From Acidobacteriaceae bacterium (GTDB lineage Bacteria > Acidobacteriota > Terriglobia > Terriglobales > Acidobacteriaceae), in assembly GCA_035944135.1 (NCBI GenBank), contig DASZBM010000002.1, positions 310,001 to 374,000 of the forward strand: 64,000 nucleotides of DNA, read 5' to 3'. Below the pieces are notes generated by a model, which saw nothing but the letters and a program-made list of their open reading frames with translations, did no database searches and was not told where the DNA came from. The translations under genes were made by a program, and so were the position numbers. Below, piece by piece: positions 5,935 to 56,676 of this stretch; the stretch's first letter is position 1, and each line of letters begins with the position of its first letter.

Positions 5935-7950
5935 ATGTACAGAATTTTGCAGCAGACAATTCAGGCGCGTATCCAGGCGCTATTGAGCGAGCGCTACGGC
6001 GTGGAGCTTGCACAGCTCGCGGTCGAGCTGCCGCCGAAGCTCGAGTTCGGCGAGATGGCGCTTCCTGTTGCGTTTGAGCTTGCCAAGCGGCTCAAAAAGG
6101 CGCCGCGGGCTATCGCGCAGGAGTTGCAGCCGGAGCTGGCGAAGATCGACGGCGTGGCGAGCGTGGAGATCGCCGGCGCGGGCTATCTGAACGTGAAGCT
6201 CGATCGCGCCGCAACCGCGCGACGCATTGCGGCGGATGAGCACGCGAGGATCGGCGGCGAAGGCTTTCGGCTGATCGAACACACGAGTATCAATCCGAAC
6301 AAGGCGGCGCACGTCGGCCATTTGCGGAACGCGATCCTCGGCGACAGCTTCGCGCGGATGGTGCGCCCAGATGATTACAAGCCCGGATACGCGACCGGCG
6401 TGCAGAACTATATCGACAACACCGGCGTGCAGGTTGCGGACATCGTCGTTGCGGTGACTGCGCTTCAGGGCATGAACCTTGACGATGTGCGCGGGTGGAT
6501 GTCGGAGCTGCTGGAGACGAATACGCGGCTCGATTACGCGTGCTGGGATTTGTACGCGCAGGTGTCGCAGTGGTACGACGCGGACCCGGATCAGACTGCA
6601 GCGCGCAAGCAGCTCCGGCTGGACACGCTGCACGCGATCGAAGCGGGCGGCAATGAGACCGCGGAGATAGCCGAGATTATCGCAACCGGCGTTCTGCACC
6701 GGCATCTCGAAACGATGGAGCGGCTGGGGATCGAGTACGATTTTCTGCCGCGCGAGAGCGAGATCCTGCACCTGCACTTCTGGGAAGCCGCGCGCGCGCT
6801 GATGGTGGAGCGCGGCGTGCTCTACAAAGAGACAGCAGGAAAGAACGCCGGCTGCTGGGTGATGCGCCGGTCTTCAAATTCAGCCGCAGGCGCTGCGCCG
6901 CCGCTCGCTCCGGGCGAGGTTGACGAAGACGCGAAGATCATCATCCGCTCGAACGGCACGGTCACGTATGTTGGCAAGGACATCGCGTATCACCTCTGGA
7001 AGTTCGGCCTGCTCGGGCGCGACTTTGGGTACGCGCGGTTCCGTGAGTATCCGACGCACACCTGCTGGGTATCGACGATGCACGGCGAAGACCCGCACCC
7101 AAGTTTTGGGCACGCGGACGCAATCTACAACGTCATCGACTCGCGCCAGGACGACCCGCAGACCCAGGTGAAGGAGGCGCTGCGCGCGCTTGGATACGAG
7201 GCGCAGGCCGCGCACTATACGCACCTGAACTACGCGTTCGTCGGCCTCACCGCACGCACTGCGCAGGAGCTCGGATATGTGCTCAGCGATGAGGATAAGG
7301 ATCGTGCCTTCATCGAGGTGAGCGGGCGTAAGGGCTTCGGTGTGAAGGCGGATGATCTGATCGATCGCATGATCGCCGCTGCGCGCGTGGAGGTCGATGC
7401 CCGTCATCCGGCACTCGACGAAGCAGAACGTGCGCAGATTGCCAACGCAATCGGCGTCGGCGCTTTGCGGTACTTCATGCTGCGCTTCACACGCAACACG
7501 GTCATCGCGTTTGATTTCAAAGACGCGCTCAGCTTCGAAGGCGAAACCGGACCCTACGCGCAGTACGCTGCGGTGCGTGCGGCGAACATCTTCCGCAAAG
7601 GCGACGCGGAGGAGGGGCAAGTACTGCGCGATTTCGCAGAGCTCGATCCGAAGATTTTGGCGCCGCTGCTCGAAGGTGAAGAGGGCACGAGTATCTGGGA
7701 AGTGTGGCTGGCGGCGTCGCGTGTTTCGCTCGTGCTCGAGCAGGCGATTGCTGCTGCGGAGCCTGCCGTGCTCGCCAAGTATGCGTTTACGCTGGCGCAG
7801 ACATTCAGCAACTTCTATCACCGGCATCGCGTGCTTACAGAGAGCGATCCGGCGCGGAAGACTCTGCTCTTCGCGACGGCTGCCGTGGCGCGGCGGGAGA
7901 TTACGCGCGTGCTGGGCTGGCTCGGTATCAGCGTGCCGGCTGCGATGTAG
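5935..7950 (+). CDS. argS: Arginyl-tRNA synthetase
   Basis: Class I aminoacyl-tRNA synthetase that charges tRNA-Arg. The N-terminal Add-1 domain is followed by the HIGH-type motif HVGH at residues 126-129 within NKAAHVGHLRNAILGDS. The KMSKS position is occupied by the degenerate KGFGVK (about 466-471), which is normal for many ArgRS enzymes lacking a canonical KMSKS. The C-terminal anticodon-binding domain contains the usual ETGPYAQYAAVRAANI stretch. At 671 residues it is at the long end for ArgRS (often 550-600); an insertion around 300-320 (SNSAAGAAPPLAPG) contributes. The last 23 bases overlap the convergent lipid-kinase gene. Confidence 0.96.
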   Translation: MYRILQQTIQARIQALLSERYGVELAQLAVELPPKLEFGEMALPVAFELAKRLKKAPRAIAQELQPELAKIDGVASVEIAGAGYLNVKLDRAATARRIAADEHARIGGEGFRLIEHTSINPNKAAHVGHLRNAILGDSFARMVRPDDYKPGYATGVQNYIDNTGVQVADIVVAVTALQGMNLDDVRGWMSELLETNTRLDYACWDLYAQVSQWYDADPDQTAARKQLRLDTLHAIEAGGNETAEIAEIIATGVLHRHLETMERLGIEYDFLPRESEILHLHFWEAARALMVERGVLYKETAGKNAGCWVMRRSSNSAAGAAPPLAPGEVDEDAKIIIRSNGTVTYVGKDIAYHLWKFGLLGRDFGYARFREYPTHTCWVSTMHGEDPHPSFGHADAIYNVIDSRQDDPQTQVKEALRALGYEAQAAHYTHLNYAFVGLTARTAQELGYVLSDEDKDRAFIEVSGRKGFGVKADDLIDRMIAAARVEVDARHPALDEAERAQIANAIGVGALRYFMLRFTRNTVIAFDFKDALSFEGETGPYAQYAAVRAANIFRKGDAEEGQVLRDFAELDPKILAPLLEGEEGTSIWEVWLAASRVSLVLEQAIAAAEPAVLAKYAFTLAQTFSNFYHRHRVLTESDPARKTLLFATAAVARREITRVLGWLGISVPAAM

Positions 7951-8881
7951 CGCGTGGTGCAGGCATCAGGAGCCGCAGCGCGTTCGGCACGAGCTCGACG
8001 TGCATCGGTGTGGTGCCAATCCATTCACCGTCAGCCTGCACATGGATCCGGTGACCGGGCGCCGCGCATGCGAAGCTCGAGACGCGCAGGTGCTGCGTGT
8101 ATGGATTCCAATGGTGAGTGCGTGTCCAACTCGTCGCAAACCACACGGGCAGCGTGAACCGGTGAGGCGGTTGGGTAACGGTCAGTTGTAAGGTCTCATC
8201 CACCGGCGAGGCCCCGCGAATCAATGGACTGAACACTCCGCCGAGATCGCCCACGCGAATTGCCATCGCGCTGACGGCTTCCTGCTCGAACCCGTTGTTT
8301 TCATCGCCCGTCGCGGTCACGCGAAATGTGGGGAACTGAGAGCCGAGGAACAGACGCGCGGCGCGCACGTAGTACATCGCCCGTCCGAGGCGATGCTTGC
8401 CGGCAGCGAGCATGCGATAGACGAGCATGCCATCCGGCCCCGCGCCGGCCATCACCGCGAAGTAGCGCGAGCGCTGACCCTCCGGCGTCTCGCAGGTCAC
8501 GCGGCCCAGCGGGATCAAGCGCGGCTCAAAACGAAGCTGCTGGTGCACCGCCTCGGCAGCGTCAAATGACAGGCCCAGGTGACGAGCCAGCGCGTTCGCA
8601 CTTCCGAGCGGAACAACACCGACAACCGCGGAGGGGTGATGCGCGAGTCCCTGCACAACCTCGTGCAGCGTGCCATCGCCGCCGCACGCGAAGACAATCT
8701 CGGCGCCACTCGCGACTGCGCCAGCCGCTTGCACGGCTGCGGTGCCGGGGCCAAGCGTGGCCACAATCTCCGTGTCGATGCCTTCGCGGCGCAGCACATT
8801 GGCCGCGCGTGCGAGCGCAGTTATGCGCGAGCGGCCGCCCCGGCCGGCGTGGGGATTGAAGATCAGGACCGCGCGAGGCAT
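7928..8881 (-). CDS. Diacylglycerol/sphingosine kinase-like lipid kinase
   Basis: A 317-residue soluble protein of the DAGK catalytic-domain family (YegS/BmrU/DgkB-like). It shows NPHAGRGG at residues 9-16, the nucleotide-binding GGDGT at 67-71, and GSANALARHLG in the third conserved block. The product is predicted to phosphorylate a membrane lipid such as diacylglycerol or undecaprenol with ATP; the acceptor is not predictable. The C-terminal beta-sandwich ends with GHRIHVQADGEWIG, typical for the family (usually written xQxDGE). Its 3' end overlaps argS by 23 bases tail to tail, so the two transcripts must be antisense to each other there. Confidence 0.88.
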   Translation of the reverse strand: MPRAVLIFNPHAGRGGRSRITALARAANVLRREGIDTEIVATLGPGTAAVQAAGAVASGAEIVFACGGDGTLHEVVQGLAHHPSAVVGVVPLGSANALARHLGLSFDAAEAVHQQLRFEPRLIPLGRVTCETPEGQRSRYFAVMAGAGPDGMLVYRMLAAGKHRLGRAMYYVRAARLFLGSQFPTFRVTATGDENNGFEQEAVSAMAIRVGDLGGVFSPLIRGASPVDETLQLTVTQPPHRFTLPVWFATSWTRTHHWNPYTQHLRVSSFACAAPGHRIHVQADGEWIGTTPMHVELVPNALRLLMPAPRATSQPAR

Positions 8882-8926
8882 GAGCTTAGGCTACCGTGCG
8901 CATTAGAGCGGCAGCGGGTGCAGCCG

Positions 8927-9442
8927 TCAGCGTCCGTGCGGAGCTTCGCCGCCTGCAGCCGGTGGGGGCCCGCTCGGATGCTCATGCTCGTGCGGCTTCG
9001 GGACGAAGACAGGCGGCTCGGCCATACCCTGGTGGCAGGTGCCGCAGGTCACCGGGTGCTCTGGTTTCGGATCCGTCAACTGCGTCAGGTAGTCCGTGTT
9101 GATGGCGGTGGCCATCTTGATCATCACGCGAGCGCGGTCCTTCATCGGGTTCGCGTCGGAGGCGAAGTTCGGCCTGTTTGTCGCGGGATCCTTCGCATGG
9201 CAGTAGGTGCACTCGACGCCGAGATCGCCTTCGAAGTGCCGCATGATGGCGACGACCTGCTCGCCGGTCAGGTCCCTGGGCAACACCTTGAGGTTTGTAG
9301 GCGGTGGAATCGGCCGCCTCTGATGCTGCGCAGCCGCGGCCCCGGGCTGCTGGGTGGGTGCGGGTTCTGTCTGTTGCGCAAATACCACCGAACCGGCCAG
9401 AAAAGAACCGGCGATCAAGACAAATAGAGATCTACTGGCCAT
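8927..9442 (-). CDS. Secreted di-heme c-type cytochrome
   Basis: A 171-residue exported protein: signal peptide of about 22 residues (LFVLIAGSFLAGSVVFAQ), a proline-rich spacer, then two CXXCH heme c sites, CTYCH at 78-82 and CGTCH at 133-137. The conserved core around NLKVLPRDLTGEQVVAIMR and the first site resembles the photosynthetic-reaction-centre cytochrome subunit-like c-type cytochromes common in Acidobacteriota, which here would be generic periplasmic electron carriers. A His/Pro/Gly-rich tail ends the protein. No oxidase or dehydrogenase partner is nearby. It stands alone between the lipid kinase and pepA, all on the minus strand. Confidence 0.85.
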   Translation of the reverse strand: MASRSLFVLIAGSFLAGSVVFAQQTEPAPTQQPGAAAAQHQRRPIPPPTNLKVLPRDLTGEQVVAIMRHFEGDLGVECTYCHAKDPATNRPNFASDANPMKDRARVMIKMATAINTDYLTQLTDPKPEHPVTCGTCHQGMAEPPVFVPKPHEHEHPSGPPPAAGGEAPHGR

Positions 9443-9523
9443 GAACGTTCCTTACCTCGCAGCTGCAAATGACTTCGTTCTGCGCAGTCTAGCAGGGGCC
9501 GTGACAGTGATCGCGCGAGAGAG

Positions 9524-11068
9524 TTACTTCGCGTAACTCCGTGCCCACTCGGTGATGCTGCGCACGCCGATGCCGCTGGGCCCCTTGGACTGCCAGGGCT
9601 TCTGCTCGTCCACCCACGCTGTGCCCGCGATGTCGAGGTGAATCCACGGCGTATCGCCGGCAAACTCCTTGAGGAACATCGCGCCTGCGATCGCGCCGCC
9701 GTAGCGCGATCCGCCGGTGTTCATGATGTCGGCTATCGAGCTCTTGATCTGCTCGCGGTAATCGTCGGTGCAGGGCATCTGCCAGAATTTCTCGCCCGCC
9801 GTCGGATACACACTGAACAACCGCTGCGCGGTCTCGTCGTCGTTGGTGAACAGCCCGGCGTTGAGCTGGCCGAGCGCGATTCCGATTGCTCCGGTCAGTG
9901 TCGCTGCGTTGATCAGCCGCGTCGCACCGAGCGTCTTCGCGTAGTGCAGGCCATCGGCAAGTACCAGGCGCCCCTCGGCATCGGTGTTCAACACCTCGAT
10001 CGTCTTGCCGGACATCGCCGTGAGCACGTCGCCGGGCTTGTAGGCGCGGCCTGAGGGCATGTTCTCGCACGAGCAGATCACGCAGAGGACGCGCACGGCA
10101 GGCTTCAGCAGCGCAATCGCGCGCATCGCGCCCAGCATCGCAGCGGCGCCGGCCATGTCGTACTTCATCTTGTCCATGTTGTCGGCGGGCTTGATGGAAA
10201 TGCCGCCGGTGTCGAACGTGATGCCCTTGCCGACGAGGCCAAGCACAGGAGCGTCCGCTGCGGGCGAGTTCGCAGGCTCATAGCGCAGCACGATGAGTGC
10301 GGGCGGCTCGGGCGAACCCTGCGCGACGCCAAGGAAGGCGCCCATCTTCAGCTCCTTCAGCTTGTCGGTCGAGTGAACCTCGCACTCCAAGCCCAGCTCC
10401 TTGGCCATTGCCGCCGCGCGTCGGCCGAACTCCGTCGGCGTGAGCACATTCCCGGGCTCGTTCACCAGCGAGCGCGTGAAGTTCTGGCTTTCGCCGAGGA
10501 CTACGCCCTCGTCCCATCCGCGCTGCGTATCCTTGCGTGTCTCGTCGTCGGCGTTTGGGACCAGCACGGTCAGGCTGCTGATGCTCTGGTCCTTGCGGTC
10601 GCTGCGATAGGTGTCGATGTCGAAATCGGCGAGGATGGCGCCTTCGGCAATCGCGCGCGCCACGAGAAAGCAGGGCAGCGCGTCAATGTGTTCGTCGGCG
10701 ATCGCGCGATCCTCTGGAAAGGCGATGGCGACATCGCGAAGCCCTCTCGGGCGTGCCAGCCGGATGGCAGTTCCCGCGGCCTTGCGAATCTCATTCGCGG
10801 ACAGCGACTTCGGCTTGCCGAGACCGATGACCAGCAGGCGCTCTGCTTTCAGCCCATCGGGACGATGGAGCACCAGCGTCTCCGCGAGCGCAGCCTTGAA
10901 TTCACCGGAGGCGAACCAGGGCGCGACGCTGGCCGCGAGTGCATCCGAGGTCGTCAGCAGGGCAGGAGAGCCCGGCTCATCCTTTCCGGTTGCGATGTCG
11001 ACGGCAAAGGCAACGAGCAGAGGCGTAGCAAAGCCCGAGGGATCCTGGAAGAGCAGCTTGGAGGTCAT
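9524..11068 (-). CDS. pepA: Leucyl aminopeptidase (M17)
   Basis: Cytosolic two-metal aminopeptidase of family M17, 514 residues, the usual length. Metal and catalytic motifs are intact: KGITFDTGG at 281-289, the MKYDMAGAA block near 301-309, and the family signature NTDAEGRL at 361-368. The N-terminal macro-like domain is less conserved, as expected. The ATG at 11068 lies 37 bases downstream (in the direction of transcription) of the smpB stop on the same strand, so co-transcription with smpB is plausible. Both would fit a role in processing peptides from stalled or damaged translation products, although that link is inference. Confidence 0.95.
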   Translation of the reverse strand: MTSKLLFQDPSGFATPLLVAFAVDIATGKDEPGSPALLTTSDALAASVAPWFASGEFKAALAETLVLHRPDGLKAERLLVIGLGKPKSLSANEIRKAAGTAIRLARPRGLRDVAIAFPEDRAIADEHIDALPCFLVARAIAEGAILADFDIDTYRSDRKDQSISSLTVLVPNADDETRKDTQRGWDEGVVLGESQNFTRSLVNEPGNVLTPTEFGRRAAAMAKELGLECEVHSTDKLKELKMGAFLGVAQGSPEPPALIVLRYEPANSPAADAPVLGLVGKGITFDTGGISIKPADNMDKMKYDMAGAAAMLGAMRAIALLKPAVRVLCVICSCENMPSGRAYKPGDVLTAMSGKTIEVLNTDAEGRLVLADGLHYAKTLGATRLINAATLTGAIGIALGQLNAGLFTNDDETAQRLFSVYPTAGEKFWQMPCTDDYREQIKSSIADIMNTGGSRYGGAIAGAMFLKEFAGDTPWIHLDIAGTAWVDEQKPWQSKGPSGIGVRSITEWARSYAK

Positions 11069-11105
11069 GTGCTCTTAATCGTAACCTGAGCGACACAAGA
11101 GCCTG

Positions 11106-11648
11106 TCATCTGCGCTGGCTGCGAGCGATCGCCGCACGGGTTTCCTTGTCGGCCTCGCGCTTGCGTTCCGTCTCGCGCTTGTCCCACTGCTGTTTTCCGG
11201 TGGCGACGGCCAGCTCGCACTTCACGCGGCCGCGGCGGAAGTACAGTCTCACCGGGATCAGCGTTGTGCCTTTGCCCTGGGTGGCTGCCGTCAGCTTCTC
11301 AATCTCGCGCTTATGCAGCAGCAGCTTCCGGGTGCGCAGGCTTTCGTGATTCATCGCGTTGCCATGCGAGAACGGGCCGATGTGCGCGTTCAGCAGGAAG
11401 GCCTCGCCGTCCTTGAGCAGGCCGTAGGCGTCCTTCAGGTTCGCCTTGCCTTCGCGGATTGACTTCACCTCGGTCCCGCGCAGCGCCACACCACACTCGA
11501 AGCGGTCCCCCAGGAAGTAGTTGAAGCTCGCCGAGCGGTTGAACGCGGCGTCCCGCTGGCCCGCAGCGACGGGGTCGCGATCCTTCGGCTTGGCGGCGGG
11601 CTTGGCCGTCGTGGCCGGCGTGGTCGGGTTGGAGAGCGAGCGGGGCAT
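11106..11648 (-). CDS. smpB: SsrA-binding protein
   Basis: SmpB binds tmRNA and delivers it to stalled ribosomes for trans-translation. The core is well conserved: NYFLGDRFECGVALRGTEVK, then SIREGKANLKDAY and the LLHKREIEKL block. The basic C-terminal tail (KRETERKREADKETR) that mimics mRNA in the decoding centre is present. At 180 residues it is longer than the usual 150-160 because of an Ala/Pro/Thr/Lys-rich N-terminal extension of about 30 residues; a later in-frame ATG before the core does not exist, so the extension is probably real. No tmRNA gene was recognised in the window. Confidence 0.94.
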   Translation of the reverse strand: MPRSLSNPTTPATTAKPAAKPKDRDPVAAGQRDAAFNRSASFNYFLGDRFECGVALRGTEVKSIREGKANLKDAYGLLKDGEAFLLNAHIGPFSHGNAMNHESLRTRKLLLHKREIEKLTAATQGKGTTLIPVRLYFRRGRVKCELAVATGKQQWDKRETERKREADKETRAAIARSQRR

Positions 11649-14615: not shown

Positions 14616-15146
14616 ATGGAAGGCCTGCAAGAACGCGTTCGACGAGCGAGAGAGCAGAGGCTGACCTCCGGTGAAGCTGGAGTCATGCGCGAAGCCGGCG
14701 TGACACGCGAAGCCGGTGTGACATTAGTCGAACTGATCATCGTTGTCGCTATCCTGGCGATCCTCGCAACCGCAGCGCTTCCGGTAGCGCGTTTCGAGGT
14801 GAAGCGCCGCAAGGAGAAAGAGTTGCGCCGTGACCTGTGGGAGATGCGCGCTGCCATCGACGCCTACAAGGACGCTGCCGATAAGGGCGGCATCCAGACG
14901 AAGGCGGACTCGAACAACTATCCGCCGGATCTGCAGACGCTGGTGGACGGCGTCGACATCCAGGATCACAAGGTGCGGTTCCTGCGGGCGATTCCGATCG
15001 ACCCGATGACGAACTCGACGGATTGGGGTCTGCGCTCGAACCAGGACGATCCTGATTCGGACAGCTTCGGCGGCCAGGACGTCTACGATGTGTATACGAA
15101 GAGCCAGGGAACGGCGATGGACGGGACGAAATACGACACATGGTGA
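14616..15146 (+). CDS. GspG-like pseudopilin with repeated leader
   Basis: A 176-residue type II secretion/type IV pilus-like pseudopilin. The prepilin-type segment is GVTLVELIIVVAILAILATAALP, with the expected Glu at +5 after the probable cleavage Gly34. The leader is unusually long (34 residues), and Val replaces the usual Phe at +1. An 18-base tandem repeat encodes (REAGVT)-like units right up to the cleavage site. The C-terminal half has the GspG-like pattern (LRRDLWEMRAAIDAYKDAA, PPDLQTLVDG, IPIDPMT), ending DGTKYDTW. ATG 14616 has GAGGG seven bases upstream and lies 10 bases after the secretin stop, indicating an operon. Confidence 0.85.
   Translation: MEGLQERVRRAREQRLTSGEAGVMREAGVTREAGVTLVELIIVVAILAILATAALPVARFEVKRRKEKELRRDLWEMRAAIDAYKDAADKGGIQTKADSNNYPPDLQTLVDGVDIQDHKVRFLRAIPIDPMTNSTDWGLRSNQDDPDSDSFGGQDVYDVYTKSQGTAMDGTKYDTW
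14671..14724 (+). repeat. Three tandem 18-bp units in the prepilin leader
   Basis: Three consecutive 18-base units at 14671-14688, 14689-14706 and 14707-14724, each close to GCGAAGCCGGCGTGACAC. They keep the reading frame and encode GEAGVM, REAGVT and REAGVT, so each ends in a potential G-V-T prepilin-like junction; only the last is followed by the hydrophobic helix. Confidence 0.85.
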
Positions 15147-50789: not shown

Positions 50790-51086
50790 CTACTTGAGGA
50801 TTCCGAGGACTTCTTCCTCGCGCATGATGAGGAAGTCCTCGCCATCGAGCTTGATCTCGGTGCCTGAGTACTTGCCGAAGAGCACGGTGTCGCCGGCCTT
50901 GACGTCGAGCGGGAAGACCTTGCCTTCGTCGTTCGACTTGCCCTTGCCAACCGAGATGACCTTGCCCTGCTGGGGCTTTTCCTTGGCGGAATCGGGGATG
51001 ATGATACCGCCGCGGACGGTTTCGCTCTCCTCGAGGCGCTGGACCAGAATGCGGTCGTGCAACGGCGTGAATTTATTAGCTGCCAT
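50790..51086 (-). CDS. groES: Co-chaperonin GroES
   Basis: A 98-residue Hsp10 lid for GroEL. Characteristic [20 protein letters not shown], followed by the [19 protein letters not shown] mobile-loop region, and [23 protein letters not shown] 51086 has GAGG upstream; the frame continuing to 51272 is leader. Transcribed from the promoter/CIRCE region at 51158-51212. Confidence 0.97.
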
Positions 51087-51157
51087 GTTCCTCTTTGTCT
51101 CCTTGATTGCGGTTTGCAGGGAAGCCGGGAGGCCGCTTTGGGGTCGGCCCGGGGGTT

Positions 51158-51184
51158 CTGGCACTCTCTGCTGCCGAGTGCTAA
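51158..51184 (-). promoter_or_regulatory. CIRCE operator
   Basis: Minus strand: TTAGCACTC, 9 bases, GAGTGCCAG. Seven of nine bases of the right arm and nine of nine of the left match the HrcA-binding CIRCE consensus TTAGCACTC-N9-GAGTGCTAA. Confidence 0.93.
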
Positions 51185-51212
51185 TGTAGTCCTCCGGATT
51201 GAGGGTCGTCAA
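51183..51212 (-). promoter_or_regulatory. groES promoter
   Basis: Minus strand: -35 TTGACG (51207-51212), 18-base spacer, -10 TACATT (51183-51188), abutting and overlapping CIRCE by two bases. Confidence 0.6.
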
Positions 51213-51329
51213 GCGGTCAACCGTAAAATGTGAGTGAAAGACGCGCATAGTTATGGCTAAGAGGGGGCGCAACTTGGACGGGAAGCTGGGCCGGGCCAGC
51301 GCTGTCTCAGGCGCGGTAGAATGCAGGGC

Positions 51330-51818
51330 ATGAGATTCAGCAGTTTCGCGCTCTCGGCGGTCTTTCTGACCGCGACGATGGCCGGTACAGACGCTTCAGC
51401 CCAGGAACATGGCCGGAAATGGCAGCCGCCACCACCCACCGCGACGGTGGTTGTGAAGGTGGTGAAAGCTTTCAATGGCAAGCCTTATGAGAACGCCGGC
51501 GTGGTATTTCATGCCACCCGTAACGGCAAAGACGATGGCAACCTGGAGGTCAAGACCGACCCGGATGGCAACGCCAAAATTGACGTCCTTGAGGTGGGCA
51601 GCCACGTGACGGTGCAGGTGATCGCCAGCGGGTATGCGACGGCGGCGACGGAGTTCGACCTGCCGGCGGACGGGAAGGAGATGACCCTGAAACTGGAACG
51701 GCCGAAGGCGCAGGTTTCGACGTACGTGGACAACGACGGGAAGACTTCGCAGACGCAGCCGGGGGTGCAGGAGCGGGTAATTCCAAAACCGGTGCCACAG
51801 CAGAGTAATCCTCAGTGA
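51330..51818 (+). CDS. Secreted CarboxypepD_reg-like protein
   Basis: A 162-residue exported protein: signal peptide about 1-23 ([19 protein letters not shown]), a beta-sandwich beginning [20 protein letters not shown], with [15 protein letters not shown] and a GYATA motif typical of carboxypeptidase-regulatory-like folds, and a proline-rich tail. ATG 51330 is preferred to 51321, which would add three residues. Its stop overlaps the GTG start of the SDR gene (GTGA), so the two genes are probably co-expressed. Function unknown. Confidence 0.75.
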
Positions 51819-52555
51819 GTGCTGACGCGCGTCCGCTGCGGGGCAAGCGGGCGCTGGTGACGGGAGGCGCGCGGCGGATTGGCCGTGCACTGGCTACGGC
51901 GCTGGCGCGCGCGGGGGCAGACGTTGCGATTACTTATCGTGGCTCGGTCGATGAGGCGGAGCAGACGGCGATCGATCTTGGTGGGCTTGGGGTGAGGGCG
52001 CTCGCGGTGGGCATGGATGTGCATCATGAGTGGAGCGTCGAACGGGCTCTGGACGACGCTGCGCTGGCTCTTGGCGGGATCGATATTCTCGTGAACAACG
52101 CCGGGCGGTTCGAGACGGAGACGCTGGAGAAGATCACCATTGGGCAATGGGACGAGATGTTCGCGACGAACACGCGCGGTCCCTTCCTGGTGGCGAAACA
52201 CGCATATCCGCATCTGAAGCGCGCGCGGGGGCGGATCATCAATATCGGGTCGCTGGGCGGTTTGCACCCGTGGTCGACGCACGCGCACTACTGCACGTCG
52301 AAGGCGGCGGTGCACATGCTTTCGCAGACGATGGCGAAGGCGTGGGCGCCGGAGATAAGCGTCAACTGTGTGGCGCCCGGCATGATTGTGACGACGGGAG
52401 AGATCAGCTCAGGCTACGAGCACTTTGCGCAGAAGACACCGATGAAGCGCAATGGGACGGTCGAGGATGTTGCGGCGGCGGTGCTGTTCTTTGCGACCTG
52501 CCCCAACTTCATCACCGGGCAGTTGCTGGCGGTGGATGGCGGGTTAGGGCTGTAG
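51815..52555 (+). CDS. SDR-family oxidoreductase
   Basis: A 246-residue short-chain dehydrogenase. NAD(P)-binding TGGARRIGRALA, VNNAG at the fourth strand, the catalytic triad region with IINIGSLGGLH and YCTSKAAVHML (Tyr/Lys), and NCVAPGMI. Resembles pteridine reductase/3-oxoacyl reductase members; the substrate is not predictable. Starts at GTG 51815 within the previous gene's stop codon. Confidence 0.88.
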   Translation: MSADARPLRGKRALVTGGARRIGRALATALARAGADVAITYRGSVDEAEQTAIDLGGLGVRALAVGMDVHHEWSVERALDDAALALGGIDILVNNAGRFETETLEKITIGQWDEMFATNTRGPFLVAKHAYPHLKRARGRIINIGSLGGLHPWSTHAHYCTSKAAVHMLSQTMAKAWAPEISVNCVAPGMIVTTGEISSGYEHFAQKTPMKRNGTVEDVAAAVLFFATCPNFITGQLLAVDGGLGL

Positions 52556-52586
52556 GGAGGTCGCCGCCTCTTCTATTCCTGGCATC

Positions 52587-52608
52587 TCACGATGTCCCTT
52601 TTTGTCCC
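52587..52608 (+). promoter_or_regulatory. Candidate operator upstream of the GlxA-type regulator
   Basis: TCACGATGTCCCTTTTTGTC, with the direct repeat TGTCCC (52593-52598) and TGTCCC (52603-52608) at exactly 10-base period. A 20/21 match occurs at 54135-54155. Confidence 0.6.
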
Positions 52609-52678
52609 TTTCATGGCCGCTGCGCTCCTTTTGGCGCGGCATCGCCGGGCGTACAGTAGGAGACGAGAGGGCGTCGAA

Positions 52679-53755
52679 ATGGTTCGGCATCAGCGCGTCC
52701 GGAACGGCTCCGGGCCTCATGCAATCACACAGCTTCCTTCGGCGAGACGCGAAATTCAGGTTATCGCCGTCCTTCCTCCACGCGTCTCGCTTCTCGATCT
52801 CGGTGGCCCGCTCGATGTGCTCCGCCGCGCCAACATCGAGCAAAAGGCGGTCTACTTCCGCGTACGCTGCGTCGGTGTCACGCGCTCCATCAGTACGTCT
52901 ATTGGCCTCGACCTGCATACGATTGAGCCGCTGCCCGAATCTCTTCCTGACGACGCCATCGTGATGGTGTTTGGCAGTGTCGACAACCCGACCAATTGGG
53001 GGCGCCCGAAAGACCACGGAGGCGACGGCGAAGACCAGGCCGTCATCGTTCGTTGGCTGGAGAACAACATTCGTCCAACCCACACGCTGGTCGGAATTTG
53101 CTCTGGGACGCTATTCTTCGGCCACGCTGGTTTGCTCGATGGTCGTAGCTGCACGACTCATCACGCGGACTGCGCGGGCCTCGCGCGCATCGCACCCAAG
53201 GCGAGAGTGCTCGAAGATCGCCTCTTTGTGCAGGATGGCAACATCTACACCTCGGCCGGTATCACTGCCGGTGTCGATCTCATGCTCTACTTCGTCGGCC
53301 GTCTTCTGGGCCCAGCCTGCACCGTAGCAATCGCGCGTCACCTCGTGGTCTACATCCGCCGCACCGGCTCGGATCCGCAAGTTTCGCCATGGCTGGAGGG
53401 CCGTAACCACATTCACCCTGCCGTGCATCGAGTGCAGGATGCCATCGCGGCAAATCCCTCGCGGGCCTGGAACAGAGTTCAGCTCGCCCAAATCGCGGGT
53501 GCGAGCATCAGGCACCTCTCAAGGCTGTTCCATAAGCAGGTAGGCATGTCGATCGTCGACTATCGCAATCGGCTGCGCGTGGCTCTCGCGCGTGAGTTCC
53601 TGTTGCAAAGCGAACTCGATATGGAGAACATCGCCGAGCGGGCAGGATTCTCTTCCACGCGGCAATTGCGCAGGGCGTGGCAACGTGTTTATCCCGGCAG
53701 CCCCAGCGAGGCAAGAACGGCGGCCGCTGAACTTTCCTCCGCTTCGGCCGCATGA
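52679..53755 (+). CDS. GlxA-family AraC-type transcriptional regulator
   Basis: A 358-residue protein. N-terminal DJ-1/PfpI-like domain: IQVIAVLPPRVSLLDLGGPL and the ICSGTLFFGHAGLLDG elbow with the Cys position. C-terminal AraC/XylS double HTH (about 250-345): VQLAQIAGASIRHLSRLFHK and ENIAERAGFSSTRQLRRAWQ. Such regulators sense small nitrogenous metabolites via the DJ-1-like domain; the ligand is unknown here. The start at 52679 is chosen because the alternative at 52592 lies inside the candidate operator. Confidence 0.88.
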   Translation: MVRHQRVRNGSGPHAITQLPSARREIQVIAVLPPRVSLLDLGGPLDVLRRANIEQKAVYFRVRCVGVTRSISTSIGLDLHTIEPLPESLPDDAIVMVFGSVDNPTNWGRPKDHGGDGEDQAVIVRWLENNIRPTHTLVGICSGTLFFGHAGLLDGRSCTTHHADCAGLARIAPKARVLEDRLFVQDGNIYTSAGITAGVDLMLYFVGRLLGPACTVAIARHLVVYIRRTGSDPQVSPWLEGRNHIHPAVHRVQDAIAANPSRAWNRVQLAQIAGASIRHLSRLFHKQVGMSIVDYRNRLRVALAREFLLQSELDMENIAERAGFSSTRQLRRAWQRVYPGSPSEARTAAAELSSASAA

Positions 53756-54134
53756 TCGCATCGCCTGTGCCATGAGAACATCGTTGGCAGCAACTCTCCG
53801 TTCCTTCTTCGTTGACAGCCCAACCACGTGTTGCGATGGTGAAGCGCGCACAAATTTGATTTGAGTGCACACGTCGGAGTGTCACGACCCCGATTTCTGT
53901 TCAAGATTGCGGCATGGCAACGATGAACGCAGTTCCCAGGTCATCCCGCTCACTGCAGGGTTCCGTTCGTTCGCTGCTGGTTACAAAGCGCAGACACTTC
54001 ACTGACAAGTACACAACCCCGCTGATCTATCCGTGAAGTCGCGGCCAAAGCCGCGCGGCCAAAAGGGACGACGGCCGGCGAGGGCTAATCGCCTTACGAA
54101 GAGCACCGTTTCGTCACGGCTCAGCTGCATATTG
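53756..54134. other. Non-coding interval, no gene recognised
   Basis: About 380 bases without a supportable ORF; only a possible GCGGC/GCCGC hairpin near 54045-54058. Lower GC at 53870-53920 than the surroundings. Confidence 0.35.
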
Positions 54135-54155
54135 TCACGATGTCCTTTTTTGTCC
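54135..54155 (+). promoter_or_regulatory. Second copy of the candidate operator, upstream of the retropepsin-like gene
   Basis: TCACGATGTCCTTTTTTGTC; direct repeat TGTCC at 54141-54145 and 54151-54155, 10-base period. One mismatch to 52587-52607. Confidence 0.6.
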
Positions 54156-54256
54156 GCACATCGTCCGTGCCGATGCTTTCGCGGTTGCCTTCGCAAACCT
54201 AACGTGGGTCATGCCGGACAGCAGAAGACGTCCCTCCGGCTGACAGGAGCAGCTAG

Positions 54257-55243
54257 ATGTTGCACACTCCGCACACAGAAAACTCTCGGTCCTCGGCCAC
54301 AGCTTCTCTCACCTTCAGAATCGCAATGCTACTCAGCGTTCTCTTTCTTCGGCTCGTCAGCGTTGCGGAAAGGACGAACAACAACATCGTTCCGTTCGAG
54401 TCCCCGCATCGCTCGATGATCGTCGTCAAGGTACGCGTGAACGGCGAGGGACCTTTTCCATTCCTCTTCGACACGGGCGCAACCTCGTCCATTGTCGACG
54501 CGAAGCTTTCTGCGGCGCTTCATCTGCCGGCCGCGCAGAGCGTCCAGGTTGCCAGTTGGGAAGCTACCACCGACGCTCGCCGAGTTCTCGTCGAGAGCCT
54601 TTCGTTCGGTCCCATCAACTCCGGTCGTCTGCCTGTGCTCGTTCAACCCCTCTTAGAGTTCAAGGCCATCGATCCAGACTTGCGCGGGGTCCTTGGGCAG
54701 GACGTGCTCCTCCGCTCCAATTACCTGATCGACAACCGCAAGCACCGCATCGAGTTTGACGACGACTCGTCCATTCTGTCGGAACTCACCGGTGACCGCA
54801 TCGCCATCGAACCTGTGCGCACCCGCGCCGGCGATCTGGAGCCGCGGCTGATTTCAGTTCCCGTGCAGACGAACGGGCATGCGGAGCCGCTTCACCTTCT
54901 TCTGGACAGCGGGGCGGACATGGTCGTTCTTCAGCCATCCTTCTCGGATCAGCCGACTGTGCTGAGGGGCAGCAAGTGGATGACCGACGAAAACGGCAGG
55001 CTCTCCTCCGCTGTCACGTTCCATACCCGACTGTCTGTGGGGTCAGAAGTGTTCAGCGCGGAGGCCTGGATCGGGGATGCGGGGCTGAAGCATATCGTGA
55101 TCGACGGTCTGCTGCCGACTGGAAGTTTCAGTCAGCTGTATATCGCCAATCAGGGTGCGTTTGTCATCTTTGAGCCCCGGCGAAAAGCGCGTAAAGCCGC
55201 GAACATCCCGGAGACGGCGGCCGCTTCCATCCAGCAGCCTTGA
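54257..55243 (+). CDS. Retropepsin-like aspartic protease family protein
   Basis: A 328-residue protein with a signal/anchor segment (about 19-38) and two pepsin-like halves: FLFDTGATSSIVD (catalytic Asp72) with GVLGQDVLL; then LLLDSGADMVVLQ (Asp217). Two D-T/S-G-A motifs in one chain fit a single-chain retropepsin fold, but a fully active enzyme is not proven. The mature part is probably periplasmic. The candidate operator at 54135 suggests control by the upstream regulator. Confidence 0.82.
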   Translation: MLHTPHTENSRSSATASLTFRIAMLLSVLFLRLVSVAERTNNNIVPFESPHRSMIVVKVRVNGEGPFPFLFDTGATSSIVDAKLSAALHLPAAQSVQVASWEATTDARRVLVESLSFGPINSGRLPVLVQPLLEFKAIDPDLRGVLGQDVLLRSNYLIDNRKHRIEFDDDSSILSELTGDRIAIEPVRTRAGDLEPRLISVPVQTNGHAEPLHLLLDSGADMVVLQPSFSDQPTVLRGSKWMTDENGRLSSAVTFHTRLSVGSEVFSAEAWIGDAGLKHIVIDGLLPTGSFSQLYIANQGAFVIFEPRRKARKAANIPETAAASIQQP

Positions 55244-55258
55244 GCCGCGTGTGGCCTG

Positions 55259-56080
55259 CTACCGCCGGAGGATCCGACGGAGCAGGCCGCGCGGCTTTTC
55301 ATCGTCGAGCTCGATGTCCTCGTATTCGTCGTGGCCTTCGATGCGTAATGGCGGTTCCTGCGGCGGAAGCCGGCGGTTGTCGAAGACGGCCTGTGGATTT
55401 TCGGTGCAAAGCCTCTGGGCGTAGGCGTCGCCGTGCCGGGAGGCGATGTGGTCAAAGGCGGGGCGCATCTGGGGCGGACGGGAGCTAATGTTGTGAGCGT
55501 CGGTGGCGATGAAATGTACCCAGCGGTCGGCGAGCAGGCGTTCGGCAAGTTTCTGCGCCTTGCGTCCCATAAGGCCGGTCACGGAGGCTGCGGTGACCTG
55601 GGTGAGCATGCCGTCGCGAACCCAGGTGGCGAGGCGTGAGGTGTCCTGCTGGAGGGTGGGATTGCGCTCGGGGTGGGTCAGGATCGGGGTCATGCCTCCC
55701 AGGCGGAGACTGTAGAAGGTCTCTTCGAGGGTGGGCGGAAGGCCGTAATCGGGCAGCTCGATGAGGAGATATTCGCCGCTATTGATGGTGTAACGATGCG
55801 GGTTTTCAATAGCCTCGCGCACATTGTCGTAGCTGAGATGGAAGTCGCAGCCGGTGCCGAGGATGAGCCGGATGCCGGCGTCGGCGATGGCCTGGCGGAG
55901 TTGGCCGAGCAGTGCCTGGATGCGTTGCGGGTCGAAATGGTAGCGGCTGCTGGCGTGGGGCGTGCAGACGACGTGGGTGATGCCGTCGTCGGCGGCCATG
56001 CGCGCCATCTTGAGGGAGGTGGCGAGGTCGGGGGCGCCGTCGTCGAGGGCGGGAAGAAGATGGTGGTGCAGATCAACCAC
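55259..56080 (-). CDS. PHP-domain tyrosine-protein phosphatase (CpsB/YwqE type)
   Basis: A 273-residue Mn-dependent phosphatase of the PHP superfamily. Metal motifs: VDLHHHLLPALDDGAP, VVCTPHAS, ILTHPERN and FIATDAHN. CpsB/YwqE/Wzb-like enzymes dephosphorylate the tyrosine kinase of exopolysaccharide synthesis, matching the Wzc-like kinase at 61769. The basic Arg tail (EKPRGLLRRILRR) could hold it to the membrane. Confidence 0.9.
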   Translation of the reverse strand: MVDLHHHLLPALDDGAPDLATSLKMARMAADDGITHVVCTPHASSRYHFDPQRIQALLGQLRQAIADAGIRLILGTGCDFHLSYDNVREAIENPHRYTINSGEYLLIELPDYGLPPTLEETFYSLRLGGMTPILTHPERNPTLQQDTSRLATWVRDGMLTQVTAASVTGLMGRKAQKLAERLLADRWVHFIATDAHNISSRPPQMRPAFDHIASRHGDAYAQRLCTENPQAVFDNRRLPPQEPPLRIEGHDEYEDIELDDEKPRGLLRRILRR

Positions 56081-56295
56081 GGTTTGAGGGTAGCATCGAC
56101 TAACTCTTAGTGCCGCTGGACGTTGAACCCCACAAGCGGAGCAGCGTTGCTGTGGAATATCGCATCAGACTGGACTAGGATAAGCTGCGTTCCGGGGCCC
56201 GGCCTCCCGTATGATGACGAGAGAGGGTTGTGCTGCGGCTACTTGAGCGGCTACCGACAGGCACCCACGGAAGGAAATCTTTTTCAGGGACCCAC

Positions 56296-56676
56296 ATGGC
56301 AGAAACCAACACGAACAGCTCGAAGCCCCGCGTTCTCGTCGCCGACGACGAGCAGGTGATTGCAAACACGCTCGCTATCATTCTGAACCAGGCAGGCTTT
56401 GAAGCGCGTGCAGTCTATAGCGGCGAGAAGGCGATTGAGGCGCTGGACACCTTCAAGCCCGACATGCTGATCAGCGACGTCATTATGACGGGAATGACCG
56501 GCATCGAGGCGGCGATTCAAACGCGCGCCAAACTTCCAAATTGCAAGGTACTATTGTTCTCCGGGCAGGCGGCAACCGCCGACCTGCTGGAGCGGGCAAG
56601 GGCTCAGGGACATGAGTTCGAGATCCTGGCCAAGCCCGTTCACCCGACAGATCTGCTCGCCAAATTGCGCGGGTAG
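56296..56676 (+). CDS. Stand-alone response regulator receiver domain
   Basis: A 126-residue CheY-like receiver without an output domain. Acidic pair D17/D18, phospho-acceptor Asp61 in DMLISDVIM, a Ser/Thr near 91 (FSGQA), and Lys in ILAKPVHP. It sits alone on the plus strand inside the minus-strand exopolysaccharide locus; no histidine kinase is adjacent. It could act by protein-protein contact on the synthesis machinery. ATG 56296 has AGGGA upstream. Confidence 0.9.
   Translation: MAETNTNSSKPRVLVADDEQVIANTLAIILNQAGFEARAVYSGEKAIEALDTFKPDMLISDVIMTGMTGIEAAIQTRAKLPNCKVLLFSGQAATADLLERARAQGHEFEILAKPVHPTDLLAKLRG

Follow-up and report, generated by a model that had tools for sequence, protein, structure and literature searches.

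The window, by which we mean the whole analysed stretch of 64,000 nucleotides, contains a gene for a GlxA/GATase1-like regulator of the AraC family (REG), which is followed by a gene for a bilobed retropepsin-like aspartic protease (RPEP). The two genes lie between a gene for an SDR oxidoreductase and a CpsB/CapC-family gene, and each of them is preceded by a predicted operator and a -10-like hexamer. The coordinates of these features are summarized in Table 1.

Table 1. Genes and predicted regulatory elements of the regulator-retropepsin locus (positions within the window).
Feature	Position	Strand	Description
SDR oxidoreductase gene, left flank	51815..52555	+	conserved in genus mates
Stretch with REG and RPEP	52556..55258		2.7 kb, between the SDR gene and the CpsB/CapC-family gene
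Predicted operator 1, before the regulator	52593..52629	+	37 bp, TGTCC-N5-TGTCC-N6-TGGCC-N6-CTCCT; 20.0 bits, rank 2 in the window
-10-like hexamer TACAGT	52652..52657	+	22 bp past block 4 of operator 1
REG	52679..53755	+	GlxA/GATase1-like AraC-family regulator; start codon inferred, ORF open from 52592
REG, DJ-1/PfpI domain	about 52766-53293	+	Pfam
REG, HTH_18 domain	about 53483-53719	+	Pfam
Predicted operator 2, before the retropepsin gene	54141..54177	+	37 bp, TGTCC-N5-TGTCC-N6-CGTCC-N6-ATGCT; 22.7 bits, rank 1 in the window
-10-like hexamer TAACGT	54200..54205	+	22 bp past block 4 of operator 2
RPEP	54257..55243	+	bilobed retropepsin-like aspartic protease, 328 aa; D72 (DTGA), D217 (DSGA), N-terminal hydrophobic stretch
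CpsB/CapC-family gene, right flank	55259..56080	-	PF19567

REG is matched by the Pfam families PF01965 (1.9e-10) and PF12833 (3.1e-19) and is by this domain content a GATase1-like regulator of the AraC family. The cutoffs of the NCBIfam equivalogs FtrA (138.7 of 425) and GbdR (104 of 480) were not reached. Among the relatives of its sensor part with solved structures are ThiJ-family proteins and the isonitrile hydratase InhA. REG might sense a metabolite or another small molecule, a guess that is implied only by its DJ-1/PfpI domain. Residue 141 is the cysteine of an ICSG motif; residue 158 is a further cysteine, that of a CTTH motif, and is kept in all 21 aligned clade members and in none of the six distant regulators.

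The best relatives of REG in named records are alphaproteobacterial (53-58% identical). Relatives from the phylum of the window, found in isochorismatase-type genomes, are 38-59% identical, and the genus mate G188 encodes a 59% identical regulator of the isochorismatase form. At E <= 1e-50, 8 of the 398 genomes of the family, the window's own counted, contain a match. A search in the genus of G586, a family genome described below, revealed a relative in 6 of 62 genomes and added two genomes, while the search of the phylum (8 of 396) added six genomes with seven loci. In a tree of 25 regulators, which was rooted with five distant regulators and L033 and from which G670, G664 and the genomes of the phylum search were left out, the regulators of the window and G586 are sisters (support 100/99). 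According to the tree and the weight matrix described below, REG falls within the clade of isochorismatase-associated regulators and has the 37-bp operator.

RPEP is matched in two stretches by the Pfam family Asp_protease_2 and also by gag-asp_proteas, not by pepsin. All 12 aligned relatives keep aspartate at both active-site positions, and D-T-G at the first position is found in 11 of them, as is D-S-G at the second in 11 of the 12. The first lobe shows the retropepsin motif, with DTGA at 72 and a subsequent hydrophobic-hydrophobic-Gly (VLG at 145-147); in the second lobe, with DSGA at 217, no hydrophobic-hydrophobic-Gly was found by the pattern used. Because both the Asp_protease_2 stretch and the D-[TS]-G motif occur twice in its chain, as in a bilobed enzyme, RPEP does not conform to family A2, whose single-lobe members act as homodimers. 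A comparison with PDB sequences gave no convincing match, only brief stretches resembling ankyrin designs and one weak hit to PE-PGRS, and a single-sequence AlphaFold model was poor (mean pLDDT 40). The N-terminal hydrophobic stretch makes it likely that the protein is exported or membrane-anchored. By analogy to known bacterial retropepsins and given this N-terminus, one may guess at an envelope protein as its substrate.

The locus of the flanking SDR gene could be obtained from 25 of the 27 genus mates. In 20 of these loci the stop-to-stop distance between the SDR gene and the CpsB/CapC-family gene is -4 to 446 bp, compared to 2703 bp in the window; the remaining five have no CpsB/CapC-family gene within the 1.5 kb covered. 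With flanks no more than 446 bp from each other in these 20 loci, the pair of REG and RPEP constitutes a 2.7-kb insert. A gain of this cassette in the genome of the window is more likely than its repeated loss, and RPEP itself is absent from all 27 genus mates at E <= 1e-10. The G+C content of the insert (60.1%, window 62.4%) is uninformative. The 446-bp gap of one genus mate (L049) was considered as a relic of the cassette, which is ruled out by the position of the 15.0-bit site of that locus outside the gap. Concerning the wider neighbourhood (50790-56676 in the window), groES, a carboxypeptidase-regulatory-like gene and the SDR gene occur in the same order in all 25 genus-mate loci; the CpsB/CapC-family gene comes next in 20 of them, and 20 contain a response regulator. 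Among the matches listed, GroEL of this genome is at most 69% identical to plasmid copies, while 268 of 2036 records show short or long matches at 80-90%; the model acidobact_VWFA matches a neighbour below its cutoff, so that by these comparisons the assignment to the acidobacteria is tentative.

The preliminary description of this DNA had reported a 21-mer which occurs with one mismatch before both genes of the insert. A search of the window with up to three mismatches allowed finds TCACGATGTCCYTTTTTGTCC solely at 52587-52607 and 54135-54155 on the forward strand, and 100 dinucleotide shuffles gave no match. The copies differ by a single base (C/T) and begin 92 bases before the regulator start (52587 to 52679) and 122 bases before the retropepsin start (54135 to 54257), which confirms the positions and distances given there. 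The genome search that had been proposed as a check was run with the 17-mer core GATGTCCNTTTTTGTCC. In the whole 4.43-Mb genome this core matches exactly at the two window sites and nowhere else within one mismatch; four further matches have two mismatches. The 26-bp pattern TGKCBNNNNNYGTCCNNNNNNNGKCY likewise matches this genome exactly twice, at the window sites, and its reversed control not at all. The 21-mer is therefore not a common element of the genome. In seven other regulator-bearing genomes the pattern has 4-7 matches versus 1-5 in the control and is thus by itself not diagnostic there. The core ATGTCCNTTTTTGTCC is found in none of 199 other sampled genomes of the family, which rules out a family-wide element; the sample excluded G590 and G593, which both carry the core before isochorismatase genes. 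Near-matches to TGKCCRTTCTTGTCC were seen in three genomes of one genus (G586:C6:390989-391014, G414:C1:1713624-1713649 and G593:C4:432363-432388).

When nine promoters of proteobacterial isochorismatase genes were aligned, an ungapped site of 37 bp emerged, TGKCC-N5-TGTCC-N6-NGTCC-N6-NGCMT. Compared with this site, both 21-mers are most likely the upstream halves of two full predicted operators. The direct repeat of TGTCC at a 10-base period, which had been noticed in each 21-mer, is indeed present; what had been taken for the operator is, however, its first half, and the whole site consists of four blocks. Blocks 1 and 3 form a direct repeat at a distance of 21 bp. In block 3, block 4 and the -10 element the two window copies keep the pattern and differ in sequence, and block 4 of operator 1 (CTCCT) is a poor fit to the consensus.

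The distance between operator and -10 element is nearly constant. For its determination 21 sites were aligned (two of the window, ten of the family and nine proteobacterial ones, several of them, as the four from Rhizobium, near relatives); G670 and G664 as well as the genomes from the phylum search were left out. A -10-like.A...T starts at offset 22 after block 4 in 16 sites and at offset 21 in four, hence in 20 of 21 sites; the site of G593 is the only one without it. The mean over all 50 offsets, offsets 21 and 22 included, is 1.3 of 21. At the -10 position 14 of the 21 sites have the stricter TA...T. With a -10 element that begins 21-22 bp after block 4, this block abuts the -35 position, which among AraC-type activators is the place of a class II activator.

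The nine proteobacterial sites were used for a weight matrix to which the window contributed no data and in which each of the four Rhizobium sites counted with a weight of 0.25. Seven of these sites come from plasmid records and two from L030 and L031, which are two of four further loci; eight of the 206 plasmid records with a match were used, and the eighth, L068, is without an isochorismatase match. Among about 128,000 window positions the matrix ranks 54141 first and 52593 second, and the third-best site (15102-15138) reaches about 13 bits (13.2 / 12.9) and lies inside an ORF read on the opposite strand. In a leave-one-out analysis, with the four Rhizobium sites removed together, the true site came first in its own locus in nine of nine cases. 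We also scanned 16 held-out loci from the phylum of the window (G586, G414, G188, G590, G593, G108, G015, G670, G664, two of G244, G484, G329, G281, G455 and G695). In 14 of them the site with the highest score, or in G108 and G281 the one with the second-highest, is found 43-113 bp ahead of the first aligned codon, either that of the regulator or that of its isochorismatase. For G455 and G695 the scan gives no site before the regulator. Three of the 14 sites score below 15 bits (14.2 in one locus of G244, 12.6 in G281 and 11.6 in G484). The top scores in 44 control loci (165 kb) are 15.4, 15.0 and 11.0, for which reason scores under about 15 count only in combination with position. Among three more distant proteobacterial regulators, L032 has only a weak site of 10.8 bits, and the scan gave no clear operator for L068 and L033. 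The top-scoring site of G281 (22.4 bits, L142 3194-3230, reverse strand) is not located before the regulator.

Two copies that are nearly identical over 21 bp could also have arisen by a recent duplication of intergenic DNA or by chance, and would then have no regulatory meaning. We regard this as extremely improbable, because the operator precedes the operon of the same regulator in Proteobacteria and in the phylum of the window, and because the pattern continues through blocks 3 and 4 as far as the -10 element, exactly where the window copies diverge. Together with the empty shuffles, the matrix scan and the -10 alignment led us to reject it. Since a linked gene need not be the binder, the sites might alternatively belong to another, unlinked regulator, with REG being merely one of its targets. 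The occurrence of the site with the REG clade in most held-out loci argues against such a regulator, as does the restriction of the 26-bp pattern in the genome of the window to the two window sites; this explanation is accordingly very unlikely.

Pairs of regulator and retropepsin were identified twice in all, in the window and in G586, which belongs to another genus and encodes a regulator 65% identical to REG and then a retropepsin 44% identical to RPEP. Relatives of RPEP at E <= 1e-20 are encoded in 19 of the 398 family genomes; apart from RPEP itself the only close one is that of G586, the next best being 30% identical, and both close genes adjoin this type of regulator. The chance that two independent retropepsin carriers both fall among the 8 of 398 regulator genomes is about 0.0004, a value that ignores shared descent and direct adjacency. 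In G586 a site of 20.0 bits precedes the regulator and one of 13.9 bits the retropepsin gene. The latter is weak, scoring below the best controls, and is marked only by its place and a -10 element at offset 22.

The suggestion of the preliminary description, a two-gene unit in which the regulator governs its own gene as well as the retropepsin gene, is thus well supported by comparison, namely by the operator found throughout the clade, the pair in G586 with its weak retropepsin site, and the insert between conserved flanks. Very probably, as far as can be judged from the sequences, REG activates its own promoter and that of RPEP via the two operators, as a small inserted two-gene unit. A dimer of REG would occupy four successive major-groove blocks spaced at periods of 10, 11 and 11 bp. 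Its fourth block would abut the -35 region, with the -10 hexamer following at about 22 bp, as in class II geometry. It is from this geometry alone that activation of both promoters is considered most likely. In the wider clade the operator would usually drive an isochorismatase-regulator operon, whereas in the window and one other genus the unit lacks the isochorismatase, and the retropepsin gene comes after the regulator and has a predicted operator of its own.

Autorepression is common, and REG could bind both sites and repress both genes until a ligand frees it. The location of the operators near the promoter would suit such a mechanism, and in the excerpts of PMC5806209 it is proposed that the regulator CdhR of Pseudomonas inhibits its own expression when carnitine is absent. 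However, the blocks lie upstream of the -35 region and abut it and do not cover the -10 element or the start, and the spacing of 21-22 bp to the -10 element in nearly all aligned sites is that expected of an activator touching polymerase. Repression is for these reasons unlikely compared with activation by REG.

CdhR, GbdR, SouR and ArgR of Pseudomonas combine, like REG, a DJ-1/PfpI-like domain with an AraC HTH (excerpts of PMC5806209). CdhR is described there as a class I activator which regulates its own expression and contacts 34 bp, with two GGTCGC half-sites separated by a 15-bp spacer, i.e. with a 21-bp period. A direct repeat with the same period is formed by blocks 1 and 3 of the window operators, where it is known from sequence. 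Unlike those of CdhR, the predicted half-sites are of the TGTCC type, and block 4 abuts the -35 region as in class II activators. The genes linked to the REG clade, a protease or an isochorismatase, also differ from those of the Pseudomonas GATase1-like regulators as presented in these excerpts.

The closest counterparts are isochorismatase-regulator operons of Rhizobium, Mesorhizobium, Sinorhizobium, Methylobacterium and Niveispirillum (regulators 53-58% identical) and of Paraburkholderia (43%), which share the 37-bp operator and the -10 spacing with the window. In the seven plasmid records that gave a site as well as in L030 and L031 an isochorismatase-family gene is followed by the regulator; L068, with a 36% identical regulator, has no isochorismatase-family gene. 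While one operator precedes the isochorismatase-regulator operon there, regulator and retropepsin gene have separate operators in the window. Operator and -10 spacing are common to such operons of Proteobacteria and of the phylum of the window. Within the family, an isochorismatase is present at the loci of G188, G590, G593, G015, G670 and G664, and among the loci of the phylum search at both loci of G244 and in G484; none was found by tblastn at those of G329, G281, G455 and G695. In the window no isochorismatase lies directly upstream of REG, where the SDR gene is the neighbour, and the only match to isochorismatase in this genome is 30% identical and encoded elsewhere. Searches of open PubMed Central papers gave no account of an isochorismatase being paired with a regulator of the GlxA type.

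Further genes are found behind these operators. G414 has a second operator (L079 7631-7667, 25.5 bits) before the gene of a 115-aa protein (7729-8076) with a hydrophobic N-terminus and without a Pfam or NCBIfam match. In G108 the top-scoring site of the locus (L083 7990-8026, 29.9 bits) is a divergent operator beside the isochorismatase-regulator operon and precedes an outer-membrane TonB-receptor-like gene (8118-11576). The variety of these genes suggests that the output gene is exchangeable. Tentatively, and with somewhat less than even confidence, we propose that the regulator lineage travels with its operator as a promoter-plus-sensor module and is re-paired with exchangeable effectors, mostly with isochorismatase, in two cases with the retropepsin, in G414 with the 115-aa protein and in G108, beside the isochorismatase, with the TonB-receptor-like gene. 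Two other loci contain further sequences of the DJ-1/PfpI type. In G281 (L142 5036-6175) a DJ-1/PfpI protein with TPR repeats follows the regulator, and in G329 (L141 about 7051-7704) a second stretch matches the DJ-1/PfpI part of REG, for which the tested frame has no Pfam match.

Among known bacterial aspartic proteases, APRc (PMC4140852), RimB (PMC11957791) as well as PerP and SpoIIGA (cited in PMC4140852) share the D-[TS]-G motif with RPEP, and the possible membrane anchor of RPEP resembles that of APRc; RPEP differs from them by its two D-[TS]-G lobes per chain. A single chain with two lobes that each carry an active-site Asp motif is known from bacterial pepsin homologues of family A1, which are described in the excerpts of PMC2761423 as intracellular and without signal peptides, in contrast to the hydrophobic stretch with which RPEP begins. 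Unlike these homologues, RPEP is placed by Pfam with Asp_protease_2 and gag-asp_proteas.

The analysis provides an operator model at base level for a clade of GATase1-like regulators of which no characterised member was found, and the model is testable in laboratory rhizobia as well as in the organism of the window. In addition, a bilobed retropepsin of bacteria is identified for which a dedicated regulator is predicted, and this offers a route to the condition under which the protease is produced. If the proposed exchange of effectors is true, the same intracellular signal would be answered by a cell-surface protease instead of a small-molecule hydrolase.
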